Assembly: GCA_012031145.1 (NCBI GenBank)
Contig: JAAUUH010000007.1
Location: 1 to 54,694 of the forward strand
Reading direction: 5' to 3'
DNA: 54,694 bases
From: Oscillatoriales cyanobacterium SM2_2_1
GTDB taxonomy: Bacteria; Cyanobacteriota; Cyanobacteriia; Pseudanabaenales; Pseudanabaenaceae
Shown here: piece by piece, positions 31,496-54,158 of the stretch
Layout: each line of letters opens with the position of its first letter
Numbering within the stretch: the stretch's first letter is position 1
Notes under the pieces: generated by a model
What the model was told of the DNA's origin: nothing
The model's input: the letters and a program-made list of their open reading frames with translations, nothing else
The model's database searches: none
Program-made: the position numbers and the translations under genes

Positions 31496-33621
31496 CTAAT
31501 TCGTAGAAAGACTATAACCCATCTGCTGAAGTTGGCGATCAAAAAAACGTTGCTGAAAATAGTACTCATCCAGCGCTTCGATCAGGATTTTGGGGGAACC
31601 GCCGGGATGCTGCAGCCGGGTTTGGATCGCTAGGTCGATCAGGTGGCGATCGCCGAGGTGCAGCACCTCAGCCACCTGCTCTGGGGTTATAGGCAAGGGC
31701 ATTTGCTTTAGCTGTTGCCACATTAGCTCCCCGCGGCAGGTTTCTGGAGAGGGGTAATTCAGTATGATCGGCTGGCGTTGATTCACTAGGGACTCCAGCG
31801 CCATAGGGGAATGGGGGCAGACCTCACAGAAATAGGCATCACCGGGTAGGTCGCCATGGGCGGGGAGGAGGGTTGGTGGCGAGCAGTCCCAGGGCTGCGT
31901 CAACGTTGGCGCATAGGAAAGGGCATCGACAACCCGCACTTCATAGCGGCGCTGGAACGGGTTATCGACTAATTCCACCACTACGTCACAGGGTCCCTGG
32001 GGGAGGTCGTAGTGTCGTTTGTCCCACCAATGGCCGGGGATGCTGCCGGTGCTATCGCTGAGGCTAAAACCCACCTTTCGCAAATTGGGGCGTCGCCCTC
32101 GGGTTTCAGGAAATTTCTCTTCCTTAACTTGACTAAATGTTGCCCTCCGAATTAGAAGCCGTGGTTGGGGGTTTCCCATGCCATAGGGTTCCAACTGGGA
32201 CAACTCCCAAAATAGCTCTTTGCCTAAATCGCTGACCCTGACTTCCAGATCAATAATAAGGGCGGGTTGAGGGGGGCGATCGCCATAGAATTGCCAATAG
32301 CGCTGATTTAGGGCCGCCCGCAGCAGGGGCAGTCGCTCTATTAAAACGCTTAATCCTGCGGCAAAGGGATGTCCGCCAAAGCGCAAAATCAAGTCTTCCT
32401 GTCCTGCTAATAACTCGTATAGATCCACTCCAGCGGGCGATCGCCCACTACCCTTGGCCACGTCGTCCTCGATGGTCAGCAGAAATGTCGCCGGCCGTAG
32501 GTCTGCACCGCTTGTCCTGCCACGATCCCCAAAATCCCCGCTGGCCATTGGGCTGACGCCAACACCAGCACCCCAGTGGTTGTCAGGTCTAACCCTTCAA
32601 TCTGCCGCTGCACCTCCTGCCATAGTTCCCCCTGCAGTTCCTTGCGCAACTGATTAGCCTGTTCCGCCGCGTCTACCAGTTGACGGCACTCTGCTTCATC
32701 CCAACTGGTGAGCAAGGTCACACATTGGCGGACATCTCCCCAAATCCGACTGATGGCATTCAAACGCGGTGCAATACCAAACCCAATATCCGTAGCCCGA
32801 TCTCCGGTTTTACGACAGGAATCGAGCAGCAACCGCAGCCCCGGGCGGCGCTTATTCCGCAGCACTTCCAGACCTCGTTGGGCTAGATAGCGCGTTTCCC
32901 CCACCAATTGCACCAAATCCGCCACCAGCCCAACCGCCACCAAATCCAATAGCTCCGCTAAAGGCTCGGGAGACTCTTGAAGTGCCTCTGTCAGCGCGCG
33001 TAGGAAGGTGTAGGCCACTGCTACCCCTGACAGACTGGCAAAGGGATGATCGCCCGGCAGCGATCGCGGATTAATGATCGCTACAACAGGTGGTCGTTCC
33101 ATCGGCAGCGTGTGGTGATCCGTCACAATCACCTCTATCCCCATGGCGGCTGCCATGGCAAGCTCTGCCCCACTAGTGCTCCCCGTATCACAGGTAATCA
33201 GGAGCGAGCAGCGCCCGCGCAAAGTCTCCAGCCCTTGGCGCGAAATCCCGTGGGACTCTCGAAACCGATCGGGAATGTAATAGAGCAGGCGACCGCCTGG
33301 CAAGAACCGACCCAAGCCCTCCCACAGCACTGCCGTGGACGTAATCCCGTCGGCATCAAAATCCCCCCAAATAGCCACTGTCTCCCCCGAGGCGATCGCC
33401 CGAACCATCCGCCCCACCGCCCACTCCATCTCCACCCCAAAGGCAAAGGGGGACGTCTCGGCATAGTCCCGGGGATCCAACCATGCTGCCACCGCTACCG
33501 GTGTGCGAATCCCCCGCTGCCAAAGCAACTGGGCCGCAAATTGCCCTATCCGGGTCACCAACCATGCATCGGGTAGCACAGGGGGCAGCATTTGCCATCG
33601 AGTTTCAGAATTATTAATCAT
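31496..33621 (-). CDS. recJ: RecJ-type single-strand exonuclease (frameshifted here)
   Basis: RecJ is a 5'-3' single-strand DNA exonuclease of recombination and repair. The N-terminal frame (ATG 33621) has the DHH-family motifs: [22 protein letters not shown] and NPR, then DHHA1-like sequence. The frame breaks at 32490-32500. One added C restores [15 protein letters not shown], after which the remaining DHHA1/OB parts ([13 protein letters not shown]) follow to 31496. The restored length is about 708 residues. It is divergent from ndhD. Confidence 0.93.
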
Positions 33622-47573: not shown

Positions 47574-49410
47574 ATGGAAGCGCTGGTCATCGGCATTGGG
47601 GTGTTGGGTGTGGTGTTGGGGCTGGTGATCGCCTTTTTTGGCAGCAGAAACAAATTGCCAAACTCCAGCAAGAGCATGAAAGGGATCTGAGTCGCAGGAT
47701 TCGTCAGCTAGAAGAACAGCACGAACAACGACTCAAGCAGCACATCGAATCCCTTCGCCCTGAACTTGGGTCACAGGAACCTCCTGCTCCTTCCCCCGAC
47801 GTTGATCAACAGTTGCCAATCACCCATATTCTGCGTCGGTTAGAGCAACCCCAAGAACTGGCGATCGCAGAGCCGGAAGATCTCTCCACTTCCTGTGTTG
47901 ATGCTCCGACCGAGACTTTGCCCACCCTAAAATTACCCCAAACAAATCAGCCAGCTTTGACCCAACCCAGCTTCGAGACTGAAATTTCGGCTGTGCTTCC
48001 ATCCCAAGCCCCACCGGATTCAGATTGGGAAGGCTCAAACCTTGACCTTTCCCGGACAGAGTTGGAACCTGCCGGGTCACAAGAACCGATGGGTTTGGAA
48101 GCATCCCACGACGGGCGAGAAGTTCTAGCCGAAAACCTGAGTCAGAGTGACCCCGCTCCGGATGAACCCCTCCCATCCCGTCCATCTGCGGAGGAATGGG
48201 AGAGTTTGGAGGTGGGATCCGAACCCGAGTTCACCCAGTCAGGAGATGGGGTCTTGGCGGCGGACTGGCAATCAGTCGCTCCCTCTTTAGACGATTCGCC
48301 CGCCGTTGGACTTGAGGTTCCCGATGCTGTTCTCCTTGACGATGGGTCTGAGGGCATGGGCAATGATTTGGAACTAAGGATTCCCTCCCTTGATGTCACT
48401 TCCCTATCTTCGGCTCCAGTTGATGATTGGAATGAGTTTTCGGCATCTCAGCCAGCCCAGCTTGGCGGTGAAGTCCCGGCCCAGTTTCTTGTTCCCTCCC
48501 TAGATGAGACTTCCCTAACCGCGACATCAGTTGAAGAATTGGATGAATTTGCAGAACCTACAGAGGTACTGCATGAGGAGGCACCTGAAGCGACCATAAT
48601 CGGGGGTGGAGATGAATGGTTGACTGAAGACTTGGCGGAACCGTTATCTTCCCTTGATGATGTTCCATTAGATCGTGAATTGGAACTCGCCAGTCAACCG
48701 GAGTTGACTGGGGAAGACCACGAAGAAAAGGGCGCAAGCGGATTTATTACCGATGAACAGGCGCGATCGCGCCATTGAACGGGGAACCAGAGCCCACATT
48801 GCCTGACATTGAGATGGTGACTGAACTGCGGGAGCTAAGCATCCACGAGCGCCCGACCCTAATCCAATCGCGATCATCCATGAAGGCGGAACCAACCCTA
48901 CCGGATATTGAGATGGTGACCGAGCTGCGATCCGCGATTCGGTTCGATGAGCCGCCTGGAGAGTCCGAGCCGACCCTCCCCGATGTCGAACTATTAACGG
49001 AACTGCGGGAACGGGTCGAACTGGAGCCTGAGCCATCTCCAACTGTAGATGCGGGCGATCGCCCCCCCACGATTTCCCGACAACAGGAGTCAAAGCTACA
49101 AATCCTTGCCCGCTGGCAGACCCTCTGTCGTCGCAATCCCCAATTTTTAGATCGTCCAGCGATTATCCAGCGCCTAGGACAATTGAGCTGCGATCGCGAT
49201 TCTGAAATTCGGCAACAGTCCCTGGCATTGCTGGGGCGAATTCCCAATGGGGACGTGCTGTCTTACCTCCTAGCCGCTTTGCGTCGGGATGCCCGCTCCC
49301 AAAAGGTGGCTGCCAAGGCCCTTTCCCAACTGCAAAACCTACCCGAGACTTCCCCATCCCGACCCCCAATGGTCTACCTTCGCCGCAGCCGCAAGGTAGT
49401 CTCTCTGTAG
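47574..49410 (+). CDS. membrane-anchored acidic protein with repeated EPTLPD motifs (frameshifted here)
   Basis: I do not recognise this protein. It starts at ATG 47574 with a membrane helix (LVIGIGVLGVVLGLVIAFF). One missing T in the TTTTTT run at 47632-47637 restores a Gln-rich coiled coil (QKQIAKLQQEHERDLSRR...). A long acidic Ser/Pro/Asp/Glu-rich region follows, with internal repeats such as VPSLDETSLTATS and IPSLDVTSLSSA. A second frameshift at 48762-48772, at GCGATCGC, leads into three copies of EPTLPD(I/V)E(M/L)(V/L)TELR. A helical HEAT-like C-terminus (QRLGQLSCDRDSEIRQQSLA and on) ends at 49410. The restored length is about 612 residues. I infer a scaffold or docking protein; no partner is known. 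Confidence 0.7.
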
Positions 49411-49488: not shown

Positions 49489-51490
49489 CTACCAGATGCG
49501 CCACGCCTCCCAGTCGAGGTTAAATATCGACGTTTCAGGAAAGGCAATGGGGTTGCCGCCTGCTACCAGGCGGCGCTGCAGGGCTTGCAACTGGGGCGAC
49601 ACCCGCGGCAAGTCAGCCACAAACTCATGGGGGCTAAGGCGATCGCGCAAACTCTGATCTGCCACCGCACCCGCCGCTATCCCCACTGACCACTCAAAGG
49701 AATGCACCCGATAGGCCGCCGCTGCCACGTAGCTAACGGCGATCGCCTTCCCAGCCACGAGCATGTTATCCACCCGTTGGGGAATCAGCGCTCTCAGGGG
49801 AATTTGGGCAGGGTAGGAAGGGGCATGGGCCCGCCGTACCTCCGGTCGTTCGATGTTTCCCGGCCGCTCCACGGGGTAATGCTTTAGACAGGGGTGAAAA
49901 TCTATCTGGTAGTGGGAAATTCCCACCGCATCGGCATAAATCGTTGAACGCGTCCGCCGGGTGATGTCCATGGGTTGGCGATTTTCCCGAATGGCTTCGG
50001 TCATCTCCAATCCTGCCAGCGATCGCCACAAATTGCGGAACATCTCCGGTGATAACGTTTCCCGATAGTAGGGATCACGGTAGTCCACCCGGGAAATATC
50101 GATCTCATCGACACTAAAACCCCGATCATGTCCCCAACTGGGACGACCGATGATTCGCCGGGCTTCCCGAATGTAAGGATATTTAGATAGCCCATGCCCC
50201 GTTCCCATGGGCGCATCTACACCCTTTAAGAAGCGGTGATTGGGGTAGGGCTTCTTTTCCCCCGCTTGGGAATTGGTAGTGCCCGCTACGAGCCAGTAGT
50301 AAAAGCCCAGGGCCAGTTCTTCGCCGCTGCGGAGTGTCTCCAACCGTAAGCCGCCGCGCCAGCCTCCAGGAGCCAGTTCGCCCCGCTCCTGCAATTGTCC
50401 CCGGGTAAAAATCAAATTGTCCCGATTGGTACCAGGGCGATAGTCATTCCCCCAGACCCAGTTTTGCATCGAAATATCCCCCGGCTTGGGCAGGGTCACG
50501 CCAAACACCCGCTGACTGCTGCGTGGCACAGGGCTCCAGATGCGGCGATAGGTAAACACCACATTAAAATCCCCCAATCTGGGATTGGGGTCGTAGCCAT
50601 AGTAGGGACTGTACCGCTCATAAAAGGGGGGCTTTTCCTGGGGTTGGGCTGTCTCCGTCTGCTCAAAGGCAAAGGTGTAGGTAAACCCTTGGGTGCAGTA
50701 GGGATCGCCATCCAGGGTTGGGGAGGAGGGATTACGGTGCGATCGCGGATCTAACCCCAACCGATAGGGCACATCCGCCAAGGCTACCAATTCTCCCGTT
50801 TCGGTGCTGTCAATGACCACCCAGCGATCACCCCGAGGACGAAAGCGCCACACCTGCTTAAGAAACCGTGGCGAGTCCCGCGGGTCGTAGGCCTCTGCCA
50901 AAATGACCGACAGCGGATAGTCCGAGATGGGCGGCATCTTAGGAGCCGCCCGGTGCTGAATTCCTAGGGCTCCGACAATCTGGCGGCGATCGCCTGAAAA
51001 CGCCAGCTCCTTCACCACCGTATGGGGAAACCACCGTAGGGTCCCCCCCCCCCGTCTGGGCCGCCTCCGCCAACATGGCTGTCAAAATATGATGGGCATC
51101 ACGGGGTAAAAAGCAGGAAACACTGACCCAGCAATCCCCCGGATTCAACAGTCCATAGAGGGACTCAATTCGCGATCGCAACTCGCGGTAGCCCTGGGCA
51201 AAAAATAACTGCGATCGCTGCTTGGCCCCCTCATCCAAAGCCGAAGTCCCCTGGGATGAGACCTGTCCGCCCACCCAGTCCGTTACCTCCGTCAGGCACA
51301 CCGTTCGCCCCGCTCGCAGTGCTTCATAGGCCGCCGCCGTCCCCGCCATGCCCCCGCCCACAATCAGCAGATCACACTCCACTACCTGCTCCCCGCTCCG
51401 GGGAACTTCCGCCACTGCCAAGCCCCCAAACCCGAGCAGCCCGCCGAGGGTCATCACTCCCCCCCATACACGCCCTAGCCAGCGATTCAT
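49489..51490 (-). CDS. FAD-dependent oxidoreductase (frameshifted here)
   Basis: The first part (ATG 51490) has a signal or membrane segment (MTLGGLLGFGGLAVAE), the FAD motif DLLIVGGGMAGTAAAY and LTEVTDWVGGQVSSQGTSAL, typical of the FAD-dependent PF12831 group. The frame breaks in an 11-base C run at 51043-51053; the rest follows as TLRWFPHTVVKELAFS to 49489, with VEVP-free but family-like blocks (RALIPQRVDNMLVAGKAIAV, RVHSFEWSVGIAAGA). Here one G too many, or two too few, is needed, unlike the other breaks. The restored length is about 666 residues. The substrate is unknown. Confidence 0.85.
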
Positions 51491-51522
51491 CTCCAGATCC
51501 CCTGCTCCATCAAAAAATATTC

Positions 51523-53064
51523 CTAAATACCGCCCGGTTCCGACACGCCCCGAATAATGCGCGACAGCTCCTGCTTTTCATCCACTGAAATTCGAGTCGG
51601 TGAGCCGCTGAGAATTCGCTCAAACCCTTGAAATGAATCCTTGATCTGGGCCCCCTGATCCGTAATCACATACTCCCGGATTCGATTGTCATGGCGTGAC
51701 CCGCGCATCTTAAACACATTCACCGCCCGCGACATCTGCCCGCGAATTTCAACATATTGCAACAAAATTATAGTGTCCGTAATGGTCGAAATATGGGACT
51801 CCGTAATGGAATGGGAGCCCATGAATTGATCTGTGGTATTGGTAAATAATCCGGTGATTTCCTCCTGCTTGACATAGCCGGTCAAGCCAATCACAAACTG
51901 ACGAAAGTTATTATTACTCACCCCCCGAGCCAAGGCTGACAGGGAGTCAATGGCGACTCGTGATGGCTTAAAGGTGGCAATCTCTGATTTGATTACCTGC
52001 AAGTGATCCTCTAGGCCAGAAGACTCGGGATAGACACAAATGATCTTGAGTAGACCGGAGCTCTCCCAGCGATCAAAGTCCGTCCCCCAAGAAGAAGCAT
52101 TGCGGGTCAACTGTTGCCGCGATTCTTCATAGGCAAACAACACGGCCCGTTCTCCTGCTTCACAACCCGTCTCCAGAAACTTGCTCACCATCAAGGTTTT
52201 ACCAGTGCCCGTCGCTCCCGTAATCAAAATAATTGAATCCCGGAAATAGCCGCCGCCACACATTTCATCAAGGGTACGAATTCCTGAGGAAACCCGCGTG
52301 TTGGAAGATTTTTGGGTCAGCCGCATTGCCCCCAGTGGAAAAATATTGATCCCCTTATCGGTCATCGTGAACGGAAACTCTCCCTTCATATGGGTTGTGC
52401 CACGCAGCTTAAGAATTTCTGTTGTTCGGTGCCGTCGCTCGCCTTCCAAGACATTTCGCATGATAATGACATTGTCGGAAACAAACTCTTCGACCCCAAA
52501 ACGGGCCACGGGGCCGTATTCCAACTCTCGCTCTGTCGTCATTACCGTGGTAACCCCCAGGGACTTGAGACGGGCGACGAGGCGAAAAATTTCCCGCCGC
52601 ACCAAGCCAAGGGATTCATACTGCTGAAATACCGCCGTAATAGAGTCAATGGAAATGCGCTTGGCTTTATATTTTAGAATTGCATACTGAATCCGTTCAA
52701 TAAGAGCCGTCAGGTCAAAATCACCAACCACTTCCTGTCCCTCGGGGTCAGGGGAAGCATCTAAAATAAATAATTTGCCCTCATCAATTAGCTTCTGCAA
52801 ATCCCAGTTAAAGCTATGGGCATTTTTGATGATATCCCTCGGCGATTCTTCAAAGGTGACAAAAATTCCCGGCTCATTGAGACTGACAATCCCGTTGTAG
52901 AGAAACTGAAGAGACAACAGGGTTTTACCCGTACCAGAAGTGCCGCTCACCAAGGTGGAGCGACCCATCGGCAATCCTCCATGGGTAATGTCATCAAGCC
53001 CTTCAATCAGGGTGCGTAGCTTTTGAACCCCCAGAAAAGATTGCTCCATTGGCGATTTAGTCAT
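51523..53064 (-). CDS. kaiC: circadian clock protein KaiC
   Basis: KaiC is the hexameric ATPase and autokinase/phosphatase at the centre of the circadian oscillator. The 513-residue protein has two RecA-like domains: Walker A GTSGTGKT (41-48) in CI and GATGTGKT (283-290) in CII, catalytic glutamates E72-E73 (CI) and E313-E314 (CII), and the phosphorylation sites S426 and T427 in ESHISTITD (equal to S431/T432 of Synechococcus elongatus). All key residues are present. The start overlaps the kaiB stop by eight bases. Confidence 0.98.
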
Positions 53065-53362
53065 CGTCGTTTAACTCCTCAAACAGTAAATCTAAACCGA
53101 TTAGCACCTTTTCACGATCGGAAAGGTCGCCAATAATCTTGCGCACAGGGGGGGGCAAAATTTTAGCTAGGGTGGGTGTGGCTAAGATTTTATCCTCCTC
53201 GGCTAACTGGGGGTTTTTAAGCACATCGATCACTTTAAGAGTGTACACGCCCTGAAATTCTTTCTCTAAGATGTCGTTCAGCGTTTTCAGTGCCCGAACC
53301 GAATTGGTAGTGTTGCCAGCGACGTAGAGTTTAAGGATGTAATTTTTGCGAATCAAGCTCAT
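53057..53362 (-). CDS. kaiB: circadian clock protein KaiB
   Basis: KaiB binds phosphorylated KaiC after switching to a thioredoxin-like fold and captures KaiA. The 101-residue protein starts at ATG 53362 ([20 protein letters not shown]), the standard KaiB N-terminus; the longer frame upstream lies in kai[21 protein letters not shown] and [19 protein letters not shown] are family signatures, and the acidic end (ELNDDD) is typical. It starts two bases after the kaiA stop codon. Confidence 0.97.
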
Positions 53363-53363
53363 A

Positions 53364-54158
53364 TTACTCTTCCCTCGGAATGGAACGGCGATACATTTCA
53401 CACAGATGGGCAATGATATCAATCAAGGTGATCCGATAGTCTAAAAGAACCTCATCACTCCGTCCTTCAATGTGAAGGCGATGGGCGAATTCATCCATTA
53501 GTTCCATATGAATTTCTAGGACTTGGGACACCGAAATGTCTGTCCAGAAAGACAAATTGACAAATTCATCAATCGTTGAATTAAGGCATTCAGATTTTTC
53601 CTTGAAATATTCTAAAACGATAATTTCATAGGTTTGTTTTAGACTTTGCCGCGTTGCCTCCCGCTCCTCGGGGGACAGATACCGAAAGAATCGTTTAGGG
53701 TCACGTTTGTAGTACACACCTAGGTATCCTAGCCGCTCTCTAAGTTTACTGGCCAGCCGTTGCTGTTGTTTTTGCAGGGGTTCGGTGATGCTGGTATTGG
53801 GCAACTGCAAAAAGTTGGCGATCGCCTGTTCGATTTTTTGGGGCAGTTGGTGGAGCTGGTCACGGCCAATCCAAACAATAGGGTAGGGGGATGCCTCCCG
53901 CTCTCCGTGGAAATGGACGACCACTGTGGGGAGAAGCAAATACAGCTCCTTGAGTTGGTATAGCAAAACTTCAGGGTGGGGTTCCCAAATTAGAAGGCAG
54001 TCGGGGGGCGGCTCGGCGGCTTGAGTAATGGCATGGAGTTCATTGACGTTGCCCATGGGTTTGAAATGGTACTGGGCTGAATCCATGTGAGCAATGATGT
54101 TTTGCAGCTCGGCGATCGCCCCGAAGCAACAAATCGTAAGAGTGGAATTAGCGGTCAC
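53364..54158 (-). CDS. kaiA: circadian clock protein KaiA
   Basis: KaiA stimulates KaiC autophosphorylation by binding its C-terminal tail. The 264-residue protein is the long two-domain form: an N-terminal pseudo-receiver (about 1-125, [16 protein letters not shown]) and the C-terminal four-helix dimer domain ([60 protein letters not shown]). It is somewhat shorter than the 284 residues of Synechococcus elongatus KaiA. The gene is intact and heads the kai operon. Confidence 0.96.

Follow-up and report, generated by a model that had tools for sequence, protein, structure and literature searches.

Short peptides, in extended or helical form, are frequent ligands of HEAT/ARM solenoids. In cyanobacteria, the phycobilisome HEAT proteins NblB and CpcE-CpcF are soluble, and they are not known to carry a membrane anchor, a coiled coil or a linker. 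Here we analysed a 54,694-nucleotide stretch (the window) of contig JAAUUH010000007.1 of Oscillatoriales cyanobacterium SM2_2_1, in which positions 47574-49410 may form a single gene for a membrane-tethered scaffold that binds partners through repeated linker motifs and a HEAT domain, a proposal to which we give about even chances on the sequence evidence. Comparisons were made mainly with a genome of the same genus (G001). The main features of the locus are as follows:

47574..47638, forward strand: N-terminal membrane helix MEALVIGIGVLGVVLGLVIAFF, with its start ATG at 47574 (translation; G001 orthologue)
47634..47639, forward strand: apparent frameshift 1, in a T6 run that lacks one base relative to a continuous frame (comparison with G001)
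47639..47769, forward strand: coiled coil, WQQKQIAKLQQEHERDLSRRIRQLEEQHEQRLKQHIESL... (conservation in G001 and across the family)
47770..49080, forward strand: acidic disordered linker, spanning apparent frameshift 2 (composition; pLDDT)
48757..48778, forward strand: 22-nt interval inside which apparent frameshift 2 must fall (stop codons of both frames)
49093..49341, forward strand: C-terminal HEAT domain, shorter than that of relatives (profile, AlphaFold2, Foldseek)
49408..49410, forward strand: stop codon of the gene (open reading frame)

A previous sequence-only reading of this DNA had described an anchored acidic protein with a helical tail. The tail is indeed helical, but profile and model data identify it specifically as a HEAT alpha-solenoid domain, which that reading had missed. 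Comparison of the tail with Pfam HEAT_2 (PF13646) gave 22.5 bits (E 1.4e-4), below the gathering cut-off of 27.7 and in comparison with values of 48-55 bits in relatives. Both profiles used for the family searches contain the window sequence, and the E-values they return for the window are not independent; the independent test was a family HEAT profile built without the window sequence, which matched the tail with 31.5 bits (E 4e-8, search space 5000). This match covered positions 58-119 of the 123 in the model and left the first repeat unmatched. In an AlphaFold2 model based on a five-sequence alignment, residues 113-193 formed confident helices, with block pLDDT values mostly of 85-91. A Foldseek search with this model retrieved alphaRep and other HEAT/ARM structures (E 0.01 or weaker, mostly with probability 1.00). 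The search of NCBIfam with the HEAT half of the window protein returned no family at E values up to 1. Altogether, the tail corresponds to a C-terminal HEAT domain of the type present in the family described below.

At the opposite end of the protein, the hydropathy of the predicted membrane helix reached a mean of 2.92 over the best 19 residues, and both start and helix recur in the G001 orthologue, where they share one frame with the coiled coil. Alignment (hhalign) of the window and G001 N-terminus with nine family N-termini resulted in a probability of 98.7 (E 4.6e-16) over 65 gap-free columns. For the intact G001 N-terminus the score was 43.1 bits, and none of 300 shuffles of its coiled coil exceeded 28.3, whereas the coiled-coil fragment of the window alone reached only 29.9 bits. 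A membrane helix directly followed by a coiled coil, as in the family, was thus found, and in the window it requires crossing one frameshift. The linker is strongly acidic (100 D/E vs 22 K/R residues), with pLDDT values of about 45-53 in its modelled part, and 63 of 135 residues aligned with G001 were identical (dN 0.50, dS 1.71), indicating moderate conservation. These data support the membrane anchor, the coiled coil and the disorder around the motifs proposed in the previous reading; the single frame implied there did not hold, since three frames had been joined silently.

Judging from its sequence, the window protein is a member of a widespread cyanobacterial family whose architecture comprises a membrane helix, a coiled coil, a Pro/acidic disordered linker and a HEAT domain. 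This architecture was common to about 33 sampled relatives, all of them with an N-terminal membrane helix, found in other genera of Pseudanabaenaceae (G004, G006) and across Cyanobacteriia; named members include Hormoscilla, Spirulina sp. CCY15215 and uncultured cyanobacteria. Strong HEAT-profile matches, one per genome, were present in 56 of 390 Cyanobacteriia genomes (E <= 1e-13). A larger profile extended the set to 76 genomes at E <= 1e-14, with the weakest matches (about 60 bits and below) including other HEAT proteins. A scan of genome contigs with the motif-HEAT half yielded no confirmed relatives. Regarding curated models, none of the four relatives tested against NCBIfam scored above cut-offs, and searches of the N-terminal half against Pfam and NCBIfam revealed no named family. 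No paper describing such an architecture was found in a search that was thin on subscription journals. HEAT proteins that combine a membrane anchor with a linker bearing motifs are thus apparently unnamed in curated models and literature. The statement that no family had been described stands as far as a curated name is concerned, yet the widespread family itself had been overlooked.

The fusion of both ends in these relatives bears on whether the motif region and HEAT tail, starting at TTG 48775, could constitute a separate soluble protein. This segment has an open frame of its own with that possible TTG start, but the HEAT domain is fused in frame to the membrane helix in the sampled relatives, and we regard a separate protein as highly improbable.

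In the assembly, the gene is split over three reading frames with intervening stops: 47574-47638 holds the membrane helix, 47639-48778 the coiled coil together with the acidic linker, and the stretch from 48757 onwards the motifs and tail. At the first break, G001 reads CTTTTGGTGGCAACAG and the frame stays open, with helix, coiled coil and linker stretch all in one open frame; the break therefore corresponds to a single base missing from the T6 run. The second break is bounded by the frame 1 TGA at 48754-48756 and the frame 2 stop at 48776-48778, and thus falls around a palindrome, GCGATCGC. The three frames with their stops, together with the absence of the first break from G001, would fit a decaying pseudogene in which both frameshifts are genuine and the full-length protein is absent. 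On the other hand, no stop interrupts the two downstream segments, of 380 and 218 codons, and the copies of the motif described below have diverged synonymously. In addition, two further genes of the window are split relative to G001, where they are intact: recJ (31499-33621, reverse strand; DHH, DHHA1 and RecJ_OB domains), broken near 32485 into two frames in comparison with one frame of 703 residues, and the gene for an FAD-dependent oxidoreductase (49489-51499, reverse strand), with a frame change near 51043. Since draft indels account for these breaks better than three independent gene losses, the three-frame layout most likely stems from indel errors made in assembling the draft, as judged from these comparisons, and a pseudogene appears unlikely.

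In G001, the orthologue was located through its SNase neighbour, and its contig stops short of the motif; contigs C37 and C67 end on opposite sides of the motif region, the assembly being broken at the locus. The neighbouring FAD gene in G001 also runs into a contig end, which indicates an assembly gap rather than absence of the region. No gene neighbours were conserved across the family, sharing being confined to small groups of related genomes, and the neighbourhood hints at neither a partner nor a pathway. A gene identified as kaiC by Pfam KaiC (51523-53064, reverse strand; 98% identical to G001) lies about 2 kb from the gene at 47574-49410, an observation to which no claim is attached. Two small open reading frames, at 53057-53422 and 53364-54158 (reverse strand), may be kaiB and kaiA by size and order only.

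Two sets of repeats were found in the linker:

48381..48448, forward strand: PSLDVTSL repeat copy 1, 68 nt
48492..48559, forward strand: PSLDETSL repeat copy 2, 68 nt, DNA 74% identical to copy 1
48790..48831, forward strand: motif copy 1, EPTLPDIEMVTELR (sequence repeat and codon comparison)
48889..48930, forward strand: motif copy 2, EPTLPDIEMVTELR (sequence repeat and codon comparison)
48967..49008, forward strand: motif copy 3, EPTLPDVELLTELR (sequence repeat and codon comparison)

Both sets had been reported in the previous reading and are present as described. Translation of 48790-49008 revealed two exact copies and one variant copy of the EPTLPD motif, all in frame and spaced by 99 nt and then 78 nt. 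The best 14-mer self-match scored 71, whereas 200 shuffles gave a mean of 33 (s.d. 3.4) and never more than 48. Between copies 1 and 2, 9 of 14 codons differ, every change being synonymous; relative to these two, copy 3 has 7-8 codons changed synonymously and 3 non-synonymously. Such synonymous divergence with an unchanged peptide indicates that the motif peptide has been maintained by selection. The codon data thus support purifying selection acting on the EPTLPD peptide, a pattern that fits a docking motif.

The same comparison bears on the possibility that the repeats are a spacer generated by tandem duplication, with no specific partner. Family linkers do differ in length and acquire different repeats, and this motif was found in one genome only, as a spacer would allow. 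However, a recent duplication is expected to leave near-identical DNA, and copies 1 and 2 combine 100% peptide identity with 78% DNA identity, the similarity stopping at the motif borders. We consider a spacer of this kind improbable, and docking peptides remain the preferred reading of the repeats.

We then considered the distribution of the motif across genomes. A motif-region search of 390 Cyanobacteriia genomes detected EPTLPD in the window's own genome only, the next matches having E values of 0.01 or weaker. Between genera of the family, the expectation that orthologues of close relatives would carry it was not borne out, since the orthologues that could be detected in G004 and G006 lack it; within the genus, the G001 contig breaks off ahead of the motifs. 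Confinement of the motif to one genome implies that its putative partner is lineage-specific, or that the partner recognises a different peptide elsewhere. Other members carry other repeats in the linker or coiled coil: PPTIQDPK occurs twice in several related genomes, L084 has five copies of AESPTVSEIITEST, L089 has two of RNQAALxAxLPQ and G004 has two of LIAxYAAxxIxTP. About a third of family members showed no repeats above shuffles. The pattern P[TSVA][IL]xD, chosen after looking, occurred 16 times in family linkers vs 1.0 expected from shuffling, but its matches were confined to the window and a small number of related genomes; as a motif shared across the family it is a lead only. Two copies of PP(T/V)I(Q/H)D(P/S) are conserved in the linkers of L082, L083, L085, L096 and L098, from another cyanobacterial family, and single copies resembling it occur in L088 and L099. 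The linkers of L109 and L111 (Hormoscilla) contain two near-exact PGSTSFPGSAWERT repeats; these may represent an in-frame insertion of a mobile or palindromic DNA repeat that is now translated.

On these grounds, a mechanism can be proposed for the scaffold. The single N-terminal helix would anchor the protein in the membrane, and the positive residues just after it suggest that the remainder is most likely cytoplasmic. The coiled coil would probably pair two copies, and the long acidic linker would present the repeated docking peptides, so that three motif copies on a dimer could provide multivalent binding. The HEAT domain and the linker motifs would recruit partner proteins and keep them close to the membrane. 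Alternatively, the motif could dock on its own HEAT domain, either in cis or on an adjacent molecule, leading to an oligomer or to a blocked HEAT groove; motif and HEAT domain are on one chain, and the peptide-binding habit of such solenoids speaks for this option. Nevertheless, the motifs were mostly coil in the AlphaFold2 model, with pLDDT of about 50 and no confident structure, in a single-chain prediction with only five alignment rows, and we hold self-docking to be improbable.

If the scaffold proposal is correct, cyanobacteria own a membrane-tethered HEAT scaffold family for which neither a curated model nor a name in a paper was found, and the repeated 14-residue motif offers a ready bait for the partners kept there by the protein. 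More tentatively, and with less confidence than we place in the scaffold itself, the whole family may consist of such scaffolds, the ends remaining constant while the linker evolves lineage-specific docking repeats and the set of partners is rewired.

Regarding known systems, HEAT-like repeats are shared with NblB and CpcE-CpcF, the relatives showed weak NCBIfam matches to these proteins, and the CpcE/CpcF complex was among the Foldseek matches of the window model. Identity as NblB or a phycobilin lyase was rejected, the best relative reaching 26.2 bits in comparison with an NCBIfam equivalog cut-off of 300. The closest examples of the architecture are unnamed proteins of L108 (Cyanobacteria bacterium QS_4_48_99), L109 (Hormoscilla), L110 (Spirulina sp. 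CCY15215), G004 and G006. In contrast with these relatives, whose linkers have at most about 220 residues, the window protein has a linker of about 470 residues (with the boundaries set here), a shortened HEAT domain and a motif found in no other genome. As in these relatives, it combines an N-terminal membrane helix, a coiled coil with a (H/Y)ExRLQxxIxSL-like signature, a Pro/acidic linker and a HEAT domain.
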